A stretch of DNA of 41,308 bases from a virus. This document shows positions 15,756-25,094 of this stretch, in pieces. Made by a program: the position numbers and the translations under genes. Where the stretch lies: the IMG/VR virus record IMGVR_UViG_3300021964_000162, positions 1 through 41,308 of that record; one strand, given 5' to 3'. Position 1 is the stretch's first letter; every line of letters begins with the position of its first letter. The notes beneath the pieces are model-generated. The model was given only the letters and a program-made list of their open reading frames with translations. It was not told where the DNA came from and made no database searches.

Positions 15756-15971
15756 TTACGTCTTCAATCCTTTTGGTACGGTTAGCTGTACTTCTGTGCT
15801 ACTACATCTGGCTGTCCAGTCAACTATCTCACCTGTATCCATCATACGCTGGTGCATAGATATTACCATTTCAGTAGAGGGACACTCATTAACTGTAGCA
15901 GTGTAAGTCTTCAGTTCGCCATCAGGCATAACGATTACGGATAGGTAGACTAGTATGGTATAGAGTTCCAT
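15756..15971 (-). CDS. Small protein with hydrophobic N-terminus
   Basis: A 71-residue protein whose first 15 residues (MELYTILVYLSVIVM) form a hydrophobic helix that may act as a signal or membrane anchor. The remainder is soluble and holds two Cys (NECPSTE and ARCSSTE) that could form a disulfide if exported. ATG 15971 overlaps the upstream stop (TGATG); a GTG one codon earlier is possible. Function unknown. Confidence 0.55.
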   Translation of the reverse strand: MELYTILVYLSVIVMPDGELKTYTATVNECPSTEMVISMHQRMMDTGEIVDWTARCSSTEVQLTVPKGLKT

Positions 15972-16183
15972 CACTCATTTCTTTCAGTCCAGCCTTCAGC
16001 CCTCATTGCTTCTTCTACGTGCTTTAACGTAAATGACCGCCCATAGTGTGCCTCAACTGCCTGCCTTACGTAGAAGACATCACTGTGAGGGATATGTAAG
16101 CGGTCTAATGAGTTGGTACGGATAGCATCATAGAATGCATCAAGTACATTATCTGTATATAGTTTTACAGATTTCTTTGCCAT
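15971..16183 (-). CDS. First leftward gene; small hypothetical protein
   Basis: A 70-residue protein, MAKKSVKLYTDNVLDAFYDA..., with a helical middle (SDVFYVRQAVEAHYGRSFTL) reminiscent of a small helix-turn-helix. It is the first gene of the leftward transcript, about 170 nt after the predicted start site of the consensus promoter at 16364-16392. A regulator would be natural in that place, but there is no family match. ATG 16183 was chosen; an in-frame TTG two codons earlier is possible. Confidence 0.55.
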   Translation of the reverse strand: MAKKSVKLYTDNVLDAFYDAIRTNSLDRLHIPHSDVFYVRQAVEAHYGRSFTLKHVEEAMRAEGWTERNE

Positions 16184-16247
16184 TGTCAAGAACTTTCTTA
16201 TGTAATATACGGATATAACTTTATAGGGTACATTTAAAGTGTTACAG

Positions 16248-16346
16248 TTAAGTGAGTTAACAAAGAAAATATATAATACATTTAAGTGTTCATTTAAGTG
16301 TATTTATAATTTAACTATATAGTAGTTAAGTGATACACTTTAAGTG
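16248..16346. repeat. TTAAGTG repeat cluster
   Basis: The heptamer TTAAGTG occurs five times on the plus strand (16248, 16282, 16294, 16326, 16340), with near copies at 16234 (TTAAAGTG) and 16350 (TTTAAGTT). Two of them form a tandem pair of CATTTAAGTGT units (16279-16302). An inverted repeat TTAACTA-N5-TAGTTAA lies among them (16311-16329). The cluster sits just downstream of the leftward promoter and so inside its leader; it looks like an operator array or iterons. Confidence 0.65.
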
Positions 16347-16363
16347 TGTTTAAGTTATACATA

Positions 16364-16392
16364 ATTATACCAGATTTTTCACAGCCTGTCAA
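16364..16392 (-). promoter_or_regulatory. Consensus leftward promoter
   Basis: Minus strand: TTGACA (16392-16387), exactly 17 nt, TATAAT (16369-16364), a full match to both sigma70 consensus hexamers in a non-coding region. The start site would be near 16357, upstream of all leftward genes from 16183. The TTAAGTG cluster lies directly downstream, well placed for repression or other control. Confidence 0.8.
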
Positions 16393-16438
16393 GTCATTTA
16401 TTATGAATAGGCGAAATGGTCCGTAGGGGGTGTATAGT

Positions 16439-16455
16439 TGCCTATTATTTAGGCA
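16439..16455. other. Short hairpin in the control region
   Basis: TGCCTA-TTATT-TAGGCA is a perfect 6-bp inverted repeat with a 5-nt loop. The upstream AATAGGC (16406-16412) can pair with GCCTATT (16440-16446) instead, so two mutually exclusive foldings are possible. Role unknown. Confidence 0.4.
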
Positions 16456-16595
16456 GTGTTGCACAATCCTTGAGCATATACAGTTGACAGTTGCTACTGT
16501 GGTTAACAGTGAATTTACCTGATCTGTGTATTTATACATGCATACGTACGCCCACACCCCCACTGGCTCCTGCCCGCCCCCAAGCTAGGTGCCTC

Positions 16596-16694
16596 ATGTG
16601 CGCCTATATGTGCCTATGTCTGCCCGCATAATGCGCATCATGTGCTTGTGACGCTGCATAATGTGCCTGTAATGCGCTGTGAGTCTAGATGTGC
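16596..16694. repeat. ATGTGC/ATGCGC repeat cluster
   Basis: ATGTGC occurs five times (16596, 16608, 16640, 16661, 16689) and ATGCGC twice (16631, 16672) within about 100 bp, next to an unusually C-rich stretch (about 16548-16585). The composition is unlike the AT-rich neighbourhood. Candidate iterons or protein-binding sites; not coding. Confidence 0.5.
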
Positions 16695-16797
16695 GAGGCA
16701 TTGGACTACTGTTATGGTATCAGTTGCCATGCCAACATTGACCATGAGCCATAGCCTATGGAAAATCACATACCGTAGCAATGTCGGAGCATACTAT

Positions 16798-16812
16798 ACC
16801 CCCATAGGGGGT
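16798..16812. other. ACCCCC/GGGGGT hairpin
   Basis: ACCCCC-ATA-GGGGGT is a perfect 6-bp inverted repeat with a 3-nt loop, and G+C-rich. It has no T-run behind it, so it is not an evident terminator. It lies 16 bp before the first, imperfect copy of the dispersed palindrome. Confidence 0.45.
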
Positions 16813-16827
16813 GGTGGTCATTCAACA

Positions 16828-16843
16828 AGTCCCACATTGGACT
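16828..16843. repeat. Dispersed palindrome, copy 1 (imperfect)
   Basis: AGTCCCACATTGGACT: same right arm and frame as the four exact copies of AGTCCAATGTTGGACT, with one mismatch in the left arm and a changed centre. Lies in the control region upstream of the first early gene. Confidence 0.55.
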
Positions 16844-16878
16844 AGTCACCGGAACCTCACACGAGTTTAGCGCACGTA

Positions 16879-16942
16879 CTTCGCTATCGAAGATAGCTGC
16901 AGTCACCTGCGAAACGGCAGGCGCAGAGGATCACATGCGAAG
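16879..16942 (+). ncRNA. Possible branched RNA structure in the early leader
   Basis: CTTCGC (16879-16884) can pair with GCGAAG (16937-16942) to enclose two local hairpins: TATC-GAA-GATA (16885-16895) and CCTGC-GAAACG-GCAGG (16906-16921). An alternative first hairpin is GCTATC-GAA-GATAGC (16883-16897). It resembles a multi-helix junction such as found in riboswitches or small RNAs, but I do not recognise a known class, and there is no evidence of expression. Confidence 0.3.
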
Positions 16943-16962
16943 CCCCAACCCAAAAGTTATAT

Positions 16963-17042
16963 CTATCTTCTTACGGTTTTACGGGATATAAACCCCTTGA
17001 ACGTAGTGAAAGGGGATATATCCCTATAAAACCTAAAGATAG
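16963..17042 (+). promoter_or_regulatory. Long foldback just before the first early gene
   Basis: Two arms pair over three blocks: CTATCTT/AAGATAG, GGTTTTA/TAAAACC and GGGATATA/TATATCCC, continued by CCCCTT/AAGGGG, with small internal loops and an 11-nt loop (16999-17009). The foldback of about 80 nt ends some 16 nt before the ATG of the first rightward gene and just before its AAAGGA site. It has no T-run, so control of translation or mRNA stability, or a protein-binding site, is more likely than termination. Confidence 0.6.
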
Positions 17043-17058
17043 TATAAAGGATGCCGAA

Positions 17059-17703
17059 ATGGAAAATTCATCAACTCAAATCATTCCTGTTGTAAACAAC
17101 ACTCTGGAAGCTGAAGGCTTTGCCTTGGCTAAAGAATGGAAGTCAATCACCAAAGGTGATAAGGCTCGTTTCACCAAGTCAACGAAGGCTGATGGCTTTG
17201 ACACACGGCTTGGAAAGCTGATGCTAAAGCTGAAGGCTGAAGGTGGTGATCGTATCGCTTCAGCTAGGCTGAAAGATTGTGGCATTGCCGGTATCGACAA
17301 ACGCCGTAGAAGCGAAGCCATGTGGTTTGCTGCGAATGAGACAGCTTGTCGTGACTTCATTGCTAAAAGCAAAAAGGGTTTCACTAGCCTTACAGCTTTA
17401 CAAGCTGCTATGAAGCCTAAAGCTGATCCAAAGCCAAAGGCTGATACAGAGACACCTGTAGAGCCAAAGGCTGATGAGAAGTCCAATGTTGGACTAAACA
17501 GCGAAGCTGATAAGACTGATCCAAAGTCTGCTTCAGACATTGCATTGGAAGCGTTAGTTCAGTGTGAACTGAACGGTGTATCCAAAGCCAAGTTCATAGC
17601 TGCTCTTAAAGAGCAATTGGAAATGCTAGATGACTCTACTGACAAGTCAGTAATCAAGGATGATGCTGGAAATGTTTATGTTGCTGCAGCTTACGCTGCC
17701 TAG
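17059..17703 (+). CDS. First early gene; two-part protein with Lys/Ala/Pro linker
   Basis: A 214-residue protein. Residues 1-115 look folded and basic (for example KLMLKLKAEGGDRIASARLK; KRRRSEAMWFAANE), residues about 118-155 form a linker with KADPKPKAD-type repeats, and the C-terminal 60 residues are acidic and helical. It is the first product of the rightward transcript, so a host-takeover or regulatory role is likely. One exact copy of the dispersed palindrome lies in the linker and is read as KSNVGLN. No family recognised. Start supported by AAAGGA about 9 nt before ATG. Confidence 0.7.
   Translation: MENSSTQIIPVVNNTLEAEGFALAKEWKSITKGDKARFTKSTKADGFDTRLGKLMLKLKAEGGDRIASARLKDCGIAGIDKRRRSEAMWFAANETACRDFIAKSKKGFTSLTALQAAMKPKADPKPKADTETPVEPKADEKSNVGLNSEADKTDPKSASDIALEALVQCELNGVSKAKFIAALKEQLEMLDDSTDKSVIKDDAGNVYVAAAYAA
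17480..17495. repeat. Dispersed palindrome, copy 2 (in coding sequence)
   Basis: Exact AGTCCAATGTTGGACT (7-bp arms, TG centre) inside the first early gene, in frame as SNVGL. The copy at 20353 is read in the same frame with the same flanks. Confidence 0.75.
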
Positions 17704-17714
17704 GAGATATTCAA

Positions 17715-17909
17715 ATGAAATTTGAAATGTTAGATTTGTTCTTGATAGCTATGCTAATGGTCGCTATATTCTTTGGATTAGCTATCCTATCGCTTTATGG
17801 CATTGGCTACATGACTTGGCTGTCATGGACAATGCTTGGTTGCAGTGCATGGTGCTTGATATGTGGCTGGGGAATTGTAGCATACAATTTGGAGAATCGT
17901 AATGGCTAA
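17715..17909 (+). CDS. Small membrane protein
   Basis: A 64-residue protein with two membrane segments (about 6-29, LFLIAMLMVAIFFGLAILSL, and 33-57, with several Trp and Cys). It is translated from ATG with TAGGAGATA a few bases upstream; the stop of the first early gene is part of that site. Early phage membrane proteins often protect against superinfection or change the host envelope; here this is conjecture. It overlaps the next gene by 8 nt. Confidence 0.65.
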   Translation: MKFEMLDLFLIAMLMVAIFFGLAILSLYGIGYMTWLSWTMLGCSAWCLICGWGIVAYNLENRNG

Positions 17910-18120
17910 ACGTGGTGCAATCATTGACATGGGTCGTCACAAAGCCGTAGGCTCTAGCTGGAAGGCTATGGATACACTGGCTTTCAGCCGTAGCTATGAG
18001 CCTGAGACACGGCCTGAGTTTCGTGTCTATGTGACAGGTCAAGCTGATGCTATGCTTGAGCAGTACAAAAAAGATGTTGACAAGGCTGATGCCTTGGCTA
18101 TACTAGATAGCATGATGTAA
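17902..18120 (+). CDS. Hypothetical early protein
   Basis: A 72-residue soluble protein, MAKRGAIIDMGRHKAVGSSW..., with a C-terminal helix rich in Asp, Lys and Ala (YKKDVDKADALAILDSMM). The ATG overlaps the end of the membrane protein gene. A TTGACA-N16-TATACT promoter match lies in its last 45 bases and would serve the next gene. Function unknown. Confidence 0.6.
   Translation: MAKRGAIIDMGRHKAVGSSWKAMDTLAFSRSYEPETRPEFRVYVTGQADAMLEQYKKDVDKADALAILDSMM
18077..18104 (+). promoter_or_regulatory. Promoter match inside the end of an early gene
   Basis: TTGACA (18077-18082), 16-nt spacer, TATACT (18099-18104). Transcription would start near 18112, about 28 nt before the next ATG. The hexamers also encode protein (VDKA and AILD), so chance is possible, but position and fit are good. 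Confidence 0.5.
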
Positions 18121-18138
18121 CACAAACGGAGTTTGAAT
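18118..18138 (+). promoter_or_regulatory. Repeated ribosome-binding leader, copy 1
   Basis: A 21-bp sequence beginning with the stop TAA and containing CAAACGGAGTTTG recurs exactly at 18478-18498. CAAAC and GTTTG can pair and would hold the Shine-Dalgarno GGAG at the tip and edge of a tight hairpin, 8-9 nt before the ATG. Sequestered or displayed ribosome binding sites of this sort can be targets of translational control. Confidence 0.55.
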
Positions 18139-18139
18139 T

Positions 18140-18397
18140 ATGGCTTACTACACTCATACAAAAAATCCTATAGGTGCTTTCAAAGAAAAAAGCGTAGGGA
18201 ATATCTTCGAGTTTTCAGTAAACATGGGTGATAACAAGGATGAATACCCTCATTTAATATGGGTAGGTGATACTATCGGGTGGCCTTATCGCTATGGTAA
18301 AGTGCAAAAAACTGTGGTCTATGTGGCTACGGATGAGGATGAAAGCGGCGATATCATAGAAAAATGGCTGCTAAAAAAATGTTGGCTATATCAATAA
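18140..18397 (+). CDS. Hypothetical early protein
   Basis: An 85-residue protein, MAYYTHTKNPIGAFKEKSVG..., with many aromatic residues and a beta-rich middle (EYPHLIWVGDTIGWPYRYGK), then an acidic turn and a Trp/Cys-containing end (KWLLKKCWLYQ). The strong Shine-Dalgarno is part of a repeated leader shared with the gene at 18499. Followed by a hairpin and a copy of the palindrome. Function unknown. Confidence 0.6.
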   Translation: MAYYTHTKNPIGAFKEKSVGNIFEFSVNMGDNKDEYPHLIWVGDTIGWPYRYGKVQKTVVYVATDEDESGDIIEKWLLKKCWLYQ

Positions 18398-18407
18398 TGT
18401 GTATAAC

Positions 18408-18444
18408 GTAATACATACTGATACTTTAGTGAAGTATGTATTAC
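18408..18444 (+). other. Hairpin with conserved 13-nt loop, copy 1
   Basis: GTAATACATACT and AGTATGTATTAC form a perfect 12-bp stem around the loop GATACTTTAGTGA. The same loop tops a different stem at 19505-19546. A palindrome copy starts 17 nt downstream. No T-run follows. A possible promoter overlaps it: TTAGTG, 16 nt, TATAAC (18448-18453). Confidence 0.7.
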
Positions 18445-18461
18445 TTATATAACACTTAACT

Positions 18462-18477
18462 AGTCCAATGTTGGACT
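18462..18477. repeat. Dispersed palindrome, copy 3
   Basis: Exact AGTCCAATGTTGGACT in a non-coding gap, 17 nt after a conserved-loop hairpin and 21 nt before an ATG. TATAAC ends 8 nt before it, so the palindrome would cover a transcription start if that -10 is used, as operators do. Confidence 0.75.
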
Positions 18478-18498
18478 TAACACAAACGGAGTTTGAAT
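18478..18498 (+). promoter_or_regulatory. Repeated ribosome-binding leader, copy 2
   Basis: Identical over 21 bp to 18118-18138, with the GGAG enclosed in the CAAAC/GTTTG inverted repeat. It follows the palindrome without a gap and ends at the ATG of the next gene. Confidence 0.55.
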
Positions 18499-18774
18499 AT
18501 GGCTAGAAAATGTGCTTGTTGTGATGTGCCGCATACTCACATTGACCTGTTCTATGTGGATAGTGCGGATGATTATTATTGCGGTTTTTGTCATGCTGAA
18601 ACCTTTTACTTTGCCGATTATGATGAAGGCTATCAAATGGCAAGGCGTGACATTGATTACAACATATATGATGCTGAAGCATCCGTGATGTCATTTGAAG
18701 GTGATCCACCGGATTGCCCTAGGCATTGGGGATATTTGCAAGCCTGTATTCACGAAGTGGAGAAAACACAATGA
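18499..18774 (+). CDS. Cysteine-rich hypothetical protein (zinc-binding likely)
   Basis: A 91-residue acidic, Tyr- and Asp-rich protein. The N-terminal part has CACC (residues 4-7) and CGFC (29-32), the usual two halves of a zinc ribbon, with His residues between (PHTHID). The C-terminal half has two more Cys. I chose ATG 18499 over an in-frame TTG at 18493 because it lies at the right distance from GGAG. Stop overlaps the next start (ATGA). Confidence 0.6.
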   Translation: MARKCACCDVPHTHIDLFYVDSADDYYCGFCHAETFYFADYDEGYQMARRDIDYNIYDAEASVMSFEGDPPDCPRHWGYLQACIHEVEKTQ

Positions 18775-19484
18775 CTTACCAAATCTTAGGCGTTGGCAAT
18801 AATGCCAAGACAATCAAGGGTGATGGCTCTGAGTATGTAACAGCTATTCGCTATCTCAAGCCATTCAAAACCATGTTCAAGGGCAAGGTGCATAACCTAT
18901 GTGCTATGGCTGAGACAGCCAAGTGCCATGAAGGCTGCCTGTTTACGGCAGGGCGTGGTGCTATGAGTACAGTACAGCGTGGTCGTGAACGCAAGACTAT
19001 GTGGCTCTTGTCTGATGCCATTGGCTTTTATGATGCCTTGAACAAAGACATTGAGACATTCATTCGCCGCCAACTAAAGAAGGGCATCAAGCCGTGTATC
19101 CGTCTGGGTGGCACGGATGACAAGGGTGACGCTATGAAGCTGGCACCACTCTATCCTGATGCACAATTCTATGATTACACAAAGGTAATCAAACGTGCTT
19201 ATCAGGAATTGCCTGACAACTATCACATCACCTTGTCATACAGCGAAGCTGATATGAAGTATGCTGATGAGGTGGTCATGGCTGTAGTCAAGACAGGTGT
19301 AAACATGGCGGTTGTATTCCGTAACAAGCTGCCTGAGACATTCCGTGGCTTGCAGGTAATTGATGGCGACAAGGATGACCTACGATTCCTTGACCCGAAA
19401 GGTGTAGTCGTTGGCTTGATTGCCAAAGGCAGAGCCAAGCACGATGACAGTGGGTTTGTAATCGACACTGATGGACGGTTCTAA
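18771..19484 (+). CDS. Gp88/DUF7227-like phage protein
   Basis: A 237-residue protein. The stretch LCAMAETAKCHEGCLFTAGR, then GAMSTVQRGRERKTMWLLSD, holds a C...C...C cluster followed by GRG and a conserved Arg-rich helix, which I associate with the Gp88/DUF7227 group of phage proteins. The later part has IRLGGTDD and mixed alpha/beta pattern (ITLSYSEADMKYADEVVMAV), suggesting a barrel-like fold. The Cys triplet could bind iron-sulfur or zinc. The family assignment is from memory of the pattern. Start 18771 overlaps the previous stop. Confidence 0.6.
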   Translation: MTYQILGVGNNAKTIKGDGSEYVTAIRYLKPFKTMFKGKVHNLCAMAETAKCHEGCLFTAGRGAMSTVQRGRERKTMWLLSDAIGFYDALNKDIETFIRRQLKKGIKPCIRLGGTDDKGDAMKLAPLYPDAQFYDYTKVIKRAYQELPDNYHITLSYSEADMKYADEVVMAVVKTGVNMAVVFRNKLPETFRGLQVIDGDKDDLRFLDPKGVVVGLIAKGRAKHDDSGFVIDTDGRF

Positions 19485-19504
19485 ACCTCTTATGTATATC
19501 TTAT

Positions 19505-19546
19505 GTAAAATATTACTTGATACTTTAGTGAAAGTAATATATTTAC
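19505..19546 (+). other. Hairpin with conserved 13-nt loop, copy 2
   Basis: ATATTACTT and AAGTAATAT pair around the same loop GATACTTTAGTGA as at 18408-18444. With one bulged A (19541) the stem continues through GTAAA/TTTAC. The stem sequence differs from copy 1 on both sides while pairing is kept. A palindrome copy follows 16 nt later and a gene start 46 nt later. Confidence 0.7.
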
Positions 19547-19562
19547 TTAGATATACTAGACA

Positions 19563-19578
19563 AGTCCAATGTTGGACT
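19563..19578. repeat. Dispersed palindrome, copy 4
   Basis: Exact AGTCCAATGTTGGACT between the conserved-loop hairpin and the ATG at 19593. TATACT (19552-19557) lies 5 nt before it, so again the palindrome would cover a transcription start if that -10 is used. Confidence 0.75.
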
Positions 19579-19592
19579 AACGGAGATTTAAA

Positions 19593-19760
19593 ATGGACGT
19601 TAAGATTTACAAAGATTTATCCATGTATGATTTTGCAATGGATGTGTATCAGAAGGCAATGCACATGAAGCATGACCATAACGTAGAACACTACGATGTG
19701 CAGGAAATAATTACTTATCTTCAGTTCATCCACGATTCGGAGAAAGGCAATGAGAATTAA
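19593..19760 (+). CDS. Small hypothetical protein
   Basis: A 55-residue helical protein, MDVKIYKDLSMYDFAMDVYQ..., rich in Met, His and Asp. CGGAGA lies about 7 nt before the ATG. The end overlaps the next start (ATG at 19750) by 11 nt. It is the first gene after the second hairpin-palindrome leader. Function unknown. Confidence 0.55.
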   Translation: MDVKIYKDLSMYDFAMDVYQKAMHMKHDHNVEHYDVQEIITYLQFIHDSEKGNEN

Positions 19761-19920
19761 ACCTATCAACCCTGTGGCGAAGGCAATGGCACAGTCACGC
19801 CGCAGGACACAAGCTGTGCCAGATAAAACCAAGTACAATCGTAATAAGGACAAAGACAATGCAAATAAAAGTCGAGAAAATGAAGTCACTCAAAACGAAA
19901 CCCCGCAAAGCAAAGCGTGA
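19750..19920 (+). CDS. Small basic hypothetical protein
   Basis: A 56-residue, Lys/Arg/Asn/Gln-rich protein beginning MRIKPINPVAKAMAQSRRRT, a pattern (NPVAKA...VPDKTKYNR) I have seen as a small conserved protein in many marine podoviruses. No fold is evident; probably binds nucleic acid. AAAGGCA stands before the start. It overlaps the next gene by 62 nt in another frame. Confidence 0.6.
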   Translation: MRIKPINPVAKAMAQSRRRTQAVPDKTKYNRNKDKDNANKSRENEVTQNETPQSKA

Positions 19921-19993
19921 TGATTGGAAGCGTAACCGCAAGGCTATGCGTAATGCAAAGCGTATGGTACAGGAGAAAAGCTATGCAGCGTAA
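19859..19993 (+). CDS. Very basic mini-protein overlapping its neighbour
   Basis: A 44-residue ORF, MQIKVEKMKSLKTKPRKAKR and so on, almost half Lys and Arg. It has a proper AAGGA site 8-9 nt before the ATG, overlaps the previous gene by 62 nt in another frame and the next by 11 nt. Both frames of the overlap are Lys-rich, which the A-rich DNA makes easy, so this call is less sure than its neighbours. Confidence 0.5.
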   Translation: MQIKVEKMKSLKTKPRKAKRDDWKRNRKAMRNAKRMVQEKSYAA

Positions 19994-20390
19994 AGTTCGT
20001 ATGTATTGGAACCTTCACAGGAGTATTTGGTCTGTGCAGGACTGTAAGACAGGCCGTGTAACTAATCACGTTCCGGCCTTGACATTAGCTGATGCCAAGT
20101 TTGTAGTGCGTCCTGCTGGTCGTGCCAAGGTATTGCGTGAAGGCAAGAAGAATGTTCATGCCTTTGCTGTAGGTTATATTGGCCTGAAAAATGGTATTGC
20201 TACTTGCATGACCAAAGGTAGCAGGCCAGTAACGTATAACCCATACAAGAATGATACGTTTGTATTCGCTGATACTGGTGAGCCAGTGACGGATGCTGAC
20301 GTTATCTCGATGTATATATGGCAGGGTAAACCTAAAGTATATGCAATCCCTAAGTCCAATGTTGGACTAAACACTAACCCGACTAACTAA
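19983..20390 (+). CDS. Conserved-type phage protein of unknown function
   Basis: A 135-residue protein beginning MQRKVRMYWNLHRSIWSVQD, then a Val/Arg-rich part with FVVRPAGRAKVLREGKKNVH, a pattern I know from small early proteins in many phages of marine and other proteobacteria; function there is also unknown. AGGAG lies 8 nt before the chosen ATG 19983. The C-terminal end KSNVGLNTNPTN is encoded by an exact palindrome copy, which looks like an insertion at the end of the gene. Confidence 0.7.
   Translation: MQRKVRMYWNLHRSIWSVQDCKTGRVTNHVPALTLADAKFVVRPAGRAKVLREGKKNVHAFAVGYIGLKNGIATCMTKGSRPVTYNPYKNDTFVFADTGEPVTDADVISMYIWQGKPKVYAIPKSNVGLNTNPTN
20353..20368. repeat. Dispersed palindrome, copy 5 (in coding sequence)
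   Basis: Exact AGTCCAATGTTGGACT in the last codons of the 135-residue protein gene, in the same frame (KSNVGLN) as the copy at 17480. It precedes the ATG of the next gene by 45 nt. Confidence 0.75.
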
Positions 20391-20413
20391 ACCAACCATA
20401 AGGAGATTATATC

Positions 20414-20794
20414 ATGGCTATCAAAACTGTAACATTTCACCAGCGTTCAACAGGCATGACAGGACAGGTGCTTGCATCACCACAGGTAGAAACAAAGCTG
20501 TCTAAGGTAGAGGCATTGTATGCTCAGTATCACGGCGTTAAACTAGGCCGCTACAAGTTATACAAAGAGGTGCTATCACTATCACGTCAGGTCAAAGCTG
20601 AAAGCGGTGGCTATCTACAGTATGACGCACAAGCTATTGCTGGCAAGCTTCTCGACACTATGCACAAGCAACTGGGTGCAGCCATCCGTGCTAAGTCAGA
20701 TACCCCTATCGGTATCAAGCTTGGCTCATATGAGGTAGGCAATCTGCGTGACCTTGCTCGTCAGGGTCGTGGCAAAGCACGGAAGGCTGCTTAA
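20414..20794 (+). CDS. Hypothetical early protein
   Basis: A 126-residue, basic, mainly helical protein, MAIKTVTFHQRSTGMTGQVL..., ending in a Gly/Arg/Lys-rich tail (QGRGKARKAA) that could bind nucleic acid. AAGGAGATT lies about 8 nt before the ATG. No family recognised. Confidence 0.65.
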   Translation: MAIKTVTFHQRSTGMTGQVLASPQVETKLSKVEALYAQYHGVKLGRYKLYKEVLSLSRQVKAESGGYLQYDAQAIAGKLLDTMHKQLGAAIRAKSDTPIGIKLGSYEVGNLRDLARQGRGKARKAA

Positions 20795-20795
20795 C

Positions 20796-20975
20796 ATGAC
20801 AACATGGCACGTTGGAATGACCGTAAGCGGTGAAACAGCAACTCTGAGTGTGGATACGTCCATGCTCAGAGACAATGCAACATGGGAAGATGCAGTCACT
20901 ACCTGCTTTGATATGGCACAGGTGTTACATCCTGATGCTGAACTTGAGTTTAATTTCATTAAGGAGTTCGATTGA
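20796..20975 (+). CDS. Small acidic hypothetical protein
   Basis: A 59-residue protein, MTTWHVGMTVSGETATLSVD..., with a beta-like start and an acidic helix at the end. The ATG follows the previous stop by one base, so translation is probably coupled. Its N-terminal strand plus helix pattern recalls the three paralogs that follow, but the likeness is weak. Confidence 0.55.
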   Translation: MTTWHVGMTVSGETATLSVDTSMLRDNATWEDAVTTCFDMAQVLHPDAELEFNFIKEFD

Positions 20976-20976
20976 T

Positions 20977-21180
20977 ATGTCTGCTAGAGGTAAGTACACA
21001 GTATGTGTATCGGTAAGTGTACAACGTGAAGTGGTTGTATTAGCTGATGATTTTGATGAGGCTGAACAGGCAGCAATGCGTGAGGTAGTCAACCTAGTTG
21101 GTGGCACTAACCCTCGTGTCGTGTCAGCTATGGAAGGCACAACCGACTGGCCTATGGATAAGGAGATTGATGATGCCTAA
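20977..21180 (+). CDS. Paralog 1 of a small tandem family
   Basis: A 67-residue protein: a start KYTVCVSVSVQREVVVLADD, an amphipathic helix EAEQAAMREVVNLVGG and an end VVSAMEG. It shares order and spacing with the next two genes (strand - strand - helix - strand). This resembles the DpnD/PcfM-type mini-fold of some small phage and plasmid proteins, but that is a tentative link. AAGGAG lies before the ATG; the stop overlaps the next start. Confidence 0.6.
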   Translation: MSARGKYTVCVSVSVQREVVVLADDFDEAEQAAMREVVNLVGGTNPRVVSAMEGTTDWPMDKEIDDA

Positions 21181-23860: not shown

Positions 23861-24219
23861 CTGATGCGGGTTGGCCTTACACAAAACGTCTGCACGAGGA
23901 TGATAAACCAAATACATTAAATGGGGCGTGGTTTTTACCACGCTTCAACTACTGGCTGGTAGAGTGTTTTGTTCCAGATTGGTCAGATAAAACTAAGGGT
24001 AAACAATGGAAGCACTACAAGACATATAAGTTTGCTTATGAACGAGGCGAAAATCCAGAAGACTATGTGCATTGTTCCTTCAATAAATCAAACATACACT
24101 TGGGAGATGGTGTGTATGTACATGACAGAACTAGCCAGTATTATAAGCTATGTAACTATCGCTTTATAGAAAGTGAAAAGGAATATAACGAGTTGGATGT
24201 GGAAAGGTTAAGTGTATGA
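23857..24219 (+). CDS. Hypothetical protein before integrase
   Basis: A 120-residue, Tyr/Trp/Lys-rich protein, MTDAGWPYTKRLHEDDKPNT..., with no membrane segment or known motif. The ATG overlaps the previous stop (ATGA) and its own stop overlaps the integrase start (ATGA). AAGGAG lies upstream within the previous gene. Function unknown. Confidence 0.6.
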   Translation: MTDAGWPYTKRLHEDDKPNTLNGAWFLPRFNYWLVECFVPDWSDKTKGKQWKHYKTYKFAYERGENPEDYVHCSFNKSNIHLGDGVYVHDRTSQYYKLCNYRFIESEKEYNELDVERLSV

Positions 24220-25094
24220 AAACAGTACAGCAACTAGTTGACAAGTATTATACTTCCAATGATTACAGTATGTTACGAGACAAGTCTAAGAAAGACTATC
24301 AATATTTCTTGGGCATAATGTGTGACAAATTTGGTGACGTTGAGTATAAGAAACTCACTAGCAAACAAGCTAAACATGCCTATGAAGAGTGGGTTGTGCG
24401 GGGCATCAGCTTCGCCAACCACATCTGCACTGTGTCATCTATTGTGTATCGTCATGCCATTGACATGGAGTACACTGCTGTCAATCCATTCGCTAGTGTC
24501 AGACGTAAAACACCACCACAACGCAAGATTGTGTGGACAGAAGATGATGTGCGTCATTTTCTTGACACTGCATACAGTGAGTTTCAGTGGCGTAGCCTTG
24601 GCTTGATAGTACACATGGCATATGATTGGTGCCAGCGACTAGGTGACATGCGGTTACTGACATGGGATAACATAGACTTGGATGAACGTAAGCTGTATCT
24701 TGAGCAGTCTAAGCGTAGGGCAGACGTAACTTTGCCCATCGAAGATGACTTGCTTGAGATGTTGACACAGCAAGAGCAAGACTTTGGCTTTCAACAGTAC
24801 GTTGTTCCCCGTACAACGCCCGTACACGGCGAGTACCACCCTTATAGTATGCAGAGACTATCTAAAGCTGGAAGGGCTGTCATGCGGCAAGCTGGGCTGG
24901 CTGAAGAACTAAGGCTGATGGACTTACGCCGCACTGGTACGACACAGATGGTTGAAGCTGGTGTTCCTATGGGACAAATCATGTCGGTTACAGGACACAG
25001 TAACCCACAGTCAGTTAAACCTTACATGAAAAATACCTACTCATCTGCAAATTCTGCATTGACAATGAGGAAATCACATGGTAAAAGCACTTAA
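24216..25094 (+). CDS. int: Tyrosine recombinase (phage integrase)
   Basis: A 292-residue site-specific recombinase. The N-terminal SAM-like core-binding domain (about 1-100) precedes the catalytic domain with R141 (WCQRLGDMRLLTWDNID), a Lys in the QSKRRADVTLPI hairpin (about 171), R238 (LMDLRRTGTTQMVEAG), H261 (TGHSNPQ) and the nucleophile Y270 (KPYMKN). The usual HxxR position reads M235-D-L-R238, so the first His is replaced, and the following RH reads RR; other catalytic residues are present. It implies the capacity to integrate, or resolve, DNA. No tRNA-like attP was found in this window. TTAAGTGT lies directly before the start codon. Confidence 0.88.
   Translation: MKTVQQLVDKYYTSNDYSMLRDKSKKDYQYFLGIMCDKFGDVEYKKLTSKQAKHAYEEWVVRGISFANHICTVSSIVYRHAIDMEYTAVNPFASVRRKTPPQRKIVWTEDDVRHFLDTAYSEFQWRSLGLIVHMAYDWCQRLGDMRLLTWDNIDLDERKLYLEQSKRRADVTLPIEDDLLEMLTQQEQDFGFQQYVVPRTTPVHGEYHPYSMQRLSKAGRAVMRQAGLAEELRLMDLRRTGTTQMVEAGVPMGQIMSVTGHSNPQSVKPYMKNTYSSANSALTMRKSHGKST

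Follow-up and report, generated by a model that had tools for sequence, protein, structure and literature searches.

We analyzed a 41,308-nucleotide stretch of viral DNA (positions 1 to 41,308 of the IMG/VR record IMGVR_UViG_3300021964_000162, hereafter the window), in which a 16-bp palindrome is dispersed through the early region. Our main finding, which we hold with a probability of about two in three, is that these 16-mers are operators of a DNA-binding protein encoded by an early gene, gene1, and that this protein most likely represses the early operon, including its own expression, in a stoperator-like manner. An operator for a phage-encoded regulator was one of the two roles offered in the original prediction, and it is now strongly supported, as the letters of the site and residue 112 of the gene1 protein (window numbering throughout) change together many times among related phages. 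Because they do so repeatedly, the regulator can be named. The window phage is a member of the HMO-2011 group of marine phages, and among named phages it is closest to Puniceispirillum phage HMO-2011, followed by the roseophages CRP-1 and CRP-345; loci from related contigs in our comparison set carry L numbers (e.g., L326 and L409).

The palindrome AGTCCAATGTTGGACT occurs exactly, as read on the plus strand, at four places, each recorded as a feature without strand. One copy lies in the part of gene1 that encodes a linker (17480 to 17495), one in the gap before the open reading frame (ORF) 18499–18774 (18462 to 18477; the matching HMO-2011 place holds AGTCCGCTGTCGGACT), and one in the gap before ORF 19593–19760 (19563 to 19578; at HMO-2011 position 1261, a palindrome of that phage stands in a closely similar context). 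The fourth is at the 3′ end of ORF 19917–20390 (20353 to 20368), ∼45 bp before ORF 20414–20794, with a matching context at HMO-2011 position 1926. An imperfect copy, AGTCCCACATTGGACT, lies in the control region ∼215 bp before gene1 (16828 to 16843, likewise without strand). It is the odd one in the window, with one arm mismatch, C at base 6, and CA in place of TG at the centre, and an off-consensus copy upstream of gene1 was seen again in several other lineages. These five positions agree with the original prediction, as do the reading of both in-gene copies (in ORF 17059–17703 and near the end of ORF 19917–20390) as KSNVGLN and the presence of a −10-like hexamer before each of the two gap copies. 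TATAAC (18448 to 18453, plus strand) is 8 nt upstream of its palindrome and TATACT (19552 to 19557, plus strand) 5 nt upstream, the latter within a 9/12 promoter-like match ending at 19557. When we allowed up to three mismatches, we obtained 10 matches, i.e., five places on both strands, all within 16828–20368; 100 shuffles gave a mean of 0.50 and a largest count of 3. No GTCC-N6-GGAC was found in the whole record besides the known sites. The claim that there were no copies elsewhere therefore holds for this record; it fails for related phages, in which this palindrome or a variant of it is present. The point from which transcription diverges is near 16.3 kb, and the palindromes are spread over the initial part of the rightward operon.

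When the genes of the window were compared with loci that carry palindromes, gene1 (17059 to 17703, plus strand) emerged as the partner gene; it encodes an uncharacterized protein of 214 amino acids. Its orthologues accompany the palindromes and, together with AlphaFold models, mark it as the putative regulator that reads them. The window protein matched nothing in PHROGs at E ≤ 0.01 and nothing in Pfam near a cut-off. Gene1 and palindromes occur together in HMO-2011, CRP-1, and CRP-345, and among 50,697 phage records gene1 was found only in these three isolates (two records for HMO-2011). The whole genome of CRP-2 contains neither gene1 nor dispersed palindromes, though an integrase and a g15971 relative are present, and the whole genome of HTVC033P lacks both gene1 and GTCC-N6-GGAC sites. 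Neither gene1 nor palindromes were found in CRP-603, CRP-207, CRP-235, and CRP-3 (first 12 kb) or in CRP-207 (6.9 kb from the end). We collected gene1 relatives by protein search, keeping the best 80 of 196 and the best 80 of 197 from two profile scans; L104 was added from the palindrome scan, as was L053, whose contig was also found by protein search. A class-free search for repeated 16-bp palindromes was then applied to 164 loci around gene1, which represent 87 distinct proteins. At least three copies of one palindrome were located near gene1 for 74 of the 87, as compared to 1 of 87 in the mirror-repeat control.

In relatives, the places of the palindromes are kept and their letters change. 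HMO-2011 has no copy of the window 16-mer. Its only GTCC-N6-GGAC sites are five copies of AGTCCGACAGCGGACT, one of them reversed; four are matched by context to the window sites at 16828, 18462, 19563, and 20353, and the fifth follows gene1. The palindrome of CRP-1 and CRP-345 is NGTCCAANNTTGGACN. The places thus stay fixed and the letters change genome-wide. For instance, HMO-2011 and L409 are identical over the 70 nt upstream of a site and share the next 28 nt after it, with six core bases differing (GCTGTC vs AAGGTT). A scan of viral contigs for AGTCCAAYRTTGGACT returned 107 stretches, and 29 of the 80 listed contain it at two or more places. In orthologous 16-bp intervals between matching flanks, a site was present in 494 of 495, and the flank-anchored comparison showed a switched inner base in 128 orthologous pairs. 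Neither a random scatter of the 16-mer nor its absence from the same gaps in relatives, the outcomes that would have spoken against a regulatory role, was observed. The other role originally offered, a mobile mini-palindrome, is mostly unsupported because all but one of these intervals are occupied and only one locus has a precise 16-bp empty site (L372:2205 vs L374 and L422, with near-identical flanks), a single gain or loss. That one site is what mobility without a regulatory role would explain; as the letters also switch in concert with residue 112, we regard such mobility as very improbable. A host operator was considered and rejected: in a scan of genome contigs for AGTCCAANNTTGGACT, each of the 80 stretches listed (of 120) held a single place, and these were scattered over unrelated phyla; no host regulon is therefore indicated. 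Our literature search for an inverted repeat in HMO-2011 found no paper, which is no proof of absence from print.

The inner letters of the palindrome follow the gene1 protein. Thr112 is associated with A at palindrome base 6 (T at base 11), Ser112 together with Lys116 with G (C at base 11), and Ser112 together with Arg116 with mixed sites in which G is mostly in the left half. For Thr112 proteins with GTCC-type sites, 54 of 57 rows had no G half-sites and the other three had fractions of 0.07 to 0.20. The G fraction was 1.0 in 12 of the 15 Ser112+Lys116 rows (0.8, 0.5, and 0.5 in the others) and 0.08 to 0.75 across the nine Ser112+Arg116 rows. Sites keep A when Thr112 is paired with Lys116 or with Arg116, so the switch resides in residue 112. 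Both halves of the site switch together in Ser112+Lys116 genomes. Among all gene1 columns compared with site class, residue 112 was the best (normalized mutual information 0.72, n = 81); the second-best column, residue 143, lies inside the palindrome itself, and residue 116 was third. The best columns of control proteins reached 0.08 for g15971 (n = 67), 0.15 for gp82 (n = 32), and 0.17 for DUF932 (n = 42), and for gp88, prim, g20414, g19750, int, and other control proteins the rows numbered fewer than 32, too few to judge, with some of these proteins scoring high by chance.

The co-change was repeated in evolution. We built a maximum-likelihood gene1 tree from residues up to ∼102, minus 76 to 90, so that the contact columns were left out; because few columns were used, many forks stayed open. 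On this tree, the site class changes 14 times and residue 112 changes 13 times. Supported branches provide 11 independent pairs: nine differ the same way, none the opposite way, and two show no difference (sign test p = 0.0039). Loci found later served as a hold-out and were scored with the rule already fixed. In the first part, Thr112 went with A in 13 of 13 proteins, Ser112+Lys116 with G in 2 of 2, and one Ser112+Arg116 protein (L495) with A; in the further part, Thr112 went with A in 27 of 27. The simple Thr/Ser rule was thus right in 42 of 43 hold-out proteins, with the truncated L502 and L525 unscored. HMO-2011 and L456, which has an HMO-like helix with Thr aligned at 112 and G-type sites, were excluded from both the tree test and the column test, as the helix alignment is unsafe; a naive count would make both exceptions. 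L455, on the contig of L326, lacks GTCC-type sites and was unscored, and residue 112 is missing from the extracted frame in L396 (SLSALQK, G fraction 0.88), L315 (on the contig of L416), L342, and L369. Taken together, these results argue strongly that the gene1 protein binds the sites.

The AlphaFold model of gene1 has a helical domain (∼14–120), a disordered linker (∼122–154) in whose coding sequence the in-gene palindrome lies, and helices at the C-terminus (158–197). Residues 13 to 123 modeled alone gave a mean predicted local distance difference test score (pLDDT) of 86 and a predicted template modeling score (pTM) of 0.70 in the best of five models, with the others at 76 to 57. Residue 81 begins one predicted helix and residue 112 is the second residue of another, positions that in the model would correspond to the usual place for base-reading residues. 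The first helix, codons 81 to 92 (KRRRSEAMWFAA; 17299 to 17334, plus strand), has a conserved basic start and is pointed to by the domain model and by L326, in which IDSQRR (K81S, R82Q) accompanies a changed palindrome. L326 has four ACCCCAANNTTGGGG-type sites, two of them with one arm mismatch, and no GTCC-N6-GGAC; its in-gene copy reads NPNVGAN, not KSNVGLN, and the link of K81S/R82Q with CC at positions 2–3 comes from this one protein. The second helix, codons 111 to 118 (LTALQAAM; 17389 to 17412, plus strand), contains Thr112 and Ala116, which track base 6 according to the domain model and the co-change. HMO-2011 and L456 have VAKQRR, a diverged second helix, and sites of the form AGTCCGCTG(T/A)CGGACT. 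We propose that two subunits would read the two half-sites of AGTCCAA-NN-TTGGACT, the helix from ∼residue 111 reading the inner bases (Thr112 with A:T, Ser112 plus Lys116 with G:C) and the basic helix from residue 81 probably reading the outer GTCC. A sequence profile search of the PDB with gene1 returned nothing up to E 5. The best VIA-align hits, 9g28 (Z 3.1, 47 residues, root-mean-square deviation 2.9) and DNA-bound LEAFY 4bhk (Z 2.9, 84 residues, root-mean-square deviation 4.1), were too weak and were not used. Separately, L062 and HMO-2011 gene1 have nearly the same C-terminal parts and different DNA-binding parts, which suggests a domain swap.

Several observations weigh against gene1 as the operator-binding repressor. 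The Ser112+Arg116 sites are mixed, and even all-A in L495, and the switch is not always shared by the site upstream of gene1, where L382 and L401 retain a GTCCAA copy. The tree is that of gene1 itself, and the class cut-off of 0.25 was chosen by us. A second rule, relating residue 81 to the outer base (K81 with A, R81 with C/T), was as strong as residue 112 in the column test; it was dropped, being mostly confined to one clade, with exceptions in L356 and L363 and failures in the hold-out at L522, L524, and L527. Foldseek searches with the full-length protein and with the domain returned nothing at E ≤ 0.001, and Pfam gave no helix-turn-helix (HTH) family match for the window protein or 63 domain sequences. 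Most gap sites have no adjoining −10-like hexamer. Lastly, no gene1 prophage was found in 292 Rhodobacterales genomes, a search made without a positive control.

Site placement points to how the protein may act. We classified 415 sites in 88 loci: 187 have a start signal (Shine-Dalgarno sequence plus ATG) within 70 nt and lie in gaps or 3′ ends, 79 are upstream of gene1, 70 are inside gene1, 22 are well inside other ORFs, and 57 are unclassified. All 61 distinct in-gene1 sites share one reading frame. A TATAAT-like hexamer ends 5 to 8 nt before 26 of 141 distinct gap sites, with a peak at that spacing, and none lies within 45 nt of the 70 in-gene1 sites. Inside the operon, polarity follows transcription (centre TG 162 vs CA 28; outer A..C 91 vs G..T 8 and C..A 45 vs T..G 3); upstream of gene1 it is mixed (TG 26 vs CA 20). 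These counts are not independent, since orthologous sites are inherited and, in gene1, the coding frame constrains the letters. In the proposed mechanism, gene1, the first gene of the rightward early operon, would produce a protein that binds the 16-mers: the one before gene1, the one within it, the two near +1 of internal promoters, and the one at the 3′ end of the gp82-family gene. Once bound, it would most likely repress the operon, its own gene included, by hindering promoter clearance and acting as a roadblock to polymerase in transit. Repression is suggested by the +1 placement, the sites in and before its own gene, the polarity, and the constant company of an integrase; we state it, and a role in lysogeny or immunity, with less confidence than binding. 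The sites may plausibly form the core of the early gene switch, as first supposed.

The same placement could be read in other ways. If gene1 instead bound AGUCCA-NNNN-UGGACU hairpins at the start of or within early transcripts, as in N/nut antitermination or mRNA protection, its first position in the operon and the single polarity kept there would be explained. A −10 hexamer 5 to 8 nt upstream would also place the hairpin at the transcript 5′ end, and mixed sites at position 6 are G..T in 23 cases and A..C in two. However, non-complementary outer pairs are mostly A..C/C..A (157), which do not pair in RNA, rather than the wobble pairs G..T/T..G (27), centre and polarity are mixed upstream of gene1, sites lie within translated genes, and Rfam has no match in 15,900–21,000, so we consider an RNA element unlikely. 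Gene1 could also be an activator or anti-repressor of middle promoters, given that sites cluster at gene starts and some adjoin −10-like hexamers; sites at +1 and within genes are unusual for activation, and they are downstream, not upstream, of the hexamers, which makes this reading improbable.

Two further functions would not involve transcription control. Several 16-bp palindromes per genome near the GC-skew turn at ∼16.3 kb are what centromere-like or genome-organizing sites (ParB/KorB-like partition or a replication organizer) might look like, but there is no ParB/KorB family match (not every ORF was scanned for a ParA-like gene), and both the polarity with transcription and the placement at gene starts would be unexpected; we judge this quite improbable. 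Core sites of the phage tyrosine integrase (24216 to 25094) are a very unlikely identity for the palindromes. An integrase is present in all 24 gene1-bearing records chosen, the window included (PF00589 at 24537–25040), and the central bases are constant within HMO-2011. Yet CRP-2 has an integrase and no such sites, for which the integrase was rejected as the site reader; the centres vary within single genomes, and several copies among early genes would invite deletions. A palindrome lookalike does occur within the integrase gene of CRP-1 (6867) and CRP-345 (7078), its place taken from the annotation of these two phages, and in L375 the lookalike is TGTCCAAGGTTGGACG, unswitched while the other five L375 sites are GTCCGA. 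We take the lookalike for a coding coincidence.

Gene1 and its putative operators resemble known systems in part. Lambda CI and Cro act at dyad operators near early promoters, clustered in OL/OR, and CI-like repressors carry HTH_3 and peptidase S24 domains. The sites described here are likewise dyads near early promoters, probably read by a dimer, but they are single sites dispersed over the operon and inside genes; neither HTH_3 nor peptidase S24 was matched by Pfam in the window protein (E ≤ 1) or in 63 domain sequences covering the DNA-binding part. Similar to T4-type PeSL cassettes, a hairpin, promoter, and start signal form a near-identical unit before different genes (18410 to 18498), though the cassette here holds an operator palindrome that changes with the phage regulator. 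The closest parallel drawn is to the L5/Cluster A stoperators as they appear in passages of PMC6550527 and PMC9283540: a single phage repressor served by many scattered sites in promoters and short intergenic gaps, polarity with transcription, and a motif that drifts together with the repressor between phages. The polarity is found here inside the operon and not upstream of gene1, and the placement holds for the gap, 3′-end, and upstream sites counted above, yet 70 sites lie in gene1. Two early genes are of L5 families, gp88 PF17338 (18771 to 19484) and gp82 PF25735 (19917 to 20390), and the operon seems to work somewhat like that of L5. Unlike the Cluster A systems in those passages, the site is a 16-bp dyad rather than a 13- to 14-bp asymmetric site bound by a monomer; there are five to eight sites in one region of a few kb (five in the window and five in HMO-2011, all early) rather than 20 to 30 genome-wide; and the gene1 protein showed no detectable relation to the repressor (L5 gp71/TipsytheTRex) in the PDB sequence and Foldseek searches above. 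Because site symmetry, number, and protein all differ, we regard the system as a variant and not a member of Cluster A.

PMC9038755 describes HMO-2011-type phages as dominant ocean phages with a broad distribution, and certain integrase-bearing ones as likely temperate. CRP-3, a phage in which gene1 is lacking, integrates according to PMC6918029. A word search of both articles found no mention of a repressor. The previously unnamed gene1 is probably the switch protein that reads the palindromic tag, because the tag changes in step with gene1 across relatives. With a named candidate regulator and an operator code, lysogeny, superinfection immunity, and early-gene timing become testable in HMO-2011-type phages, and immunity type may become readable from metagenomic sequence. 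Repeated one-residue switches accompanied by nearly all sites in a genome are a rare natural record of a protein and its dispersed sites co-evolving. A bolder reading, which we offer tentatively as somewhat short of an even bet, is that gene1 represents a new DNA-binding family with two base-reading helices in one fold. Its dispersed, polar, palindromic roadblocks would control early genes in HMO-2011-type phages, and its specificity would have flipped about nine times, mainly through Thr112/Ser, with nearly all genome sites following, leaving a natural series of heteroimmune repressor-operator pairs.

Lastly, several minor features were seen around the sites. AT-rich hairpins at 18410–18442 (plus strand, before the promoter hexamer) and 19510–19540 have different stems and a shared loop, GATACTTTAGTGA (at 19519–19531 in the latter), just upstream of palindromes, and a hairpin before gene1 (16993–17015) has a G+C-richer stem and a related loop, GAACGTAGTGA; the conserved loop may be an RNA or DNA element belonging to the cassette. 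The hairpin-promoter-palindrome-Shine-Dalgarno cassette is near-identical before different genes in the window (18400–18500), HMO-2011 (1–100), L409, and L425, and resembles a shuffled regulatory module. The region ∼16829–16941 shares 77 to 80% DNA identity with CRP-345 and CRP-1, with no annotated feature there and no Rfam match. Five TTAAGTG motifs lie at 16248–16346, their record-wide count not above chance, and a perfect leftward promoter (TTGACA-17-TATAAT, with TG before the −10) is on the minus strand at 16392–16364, with no palindrome nearby.

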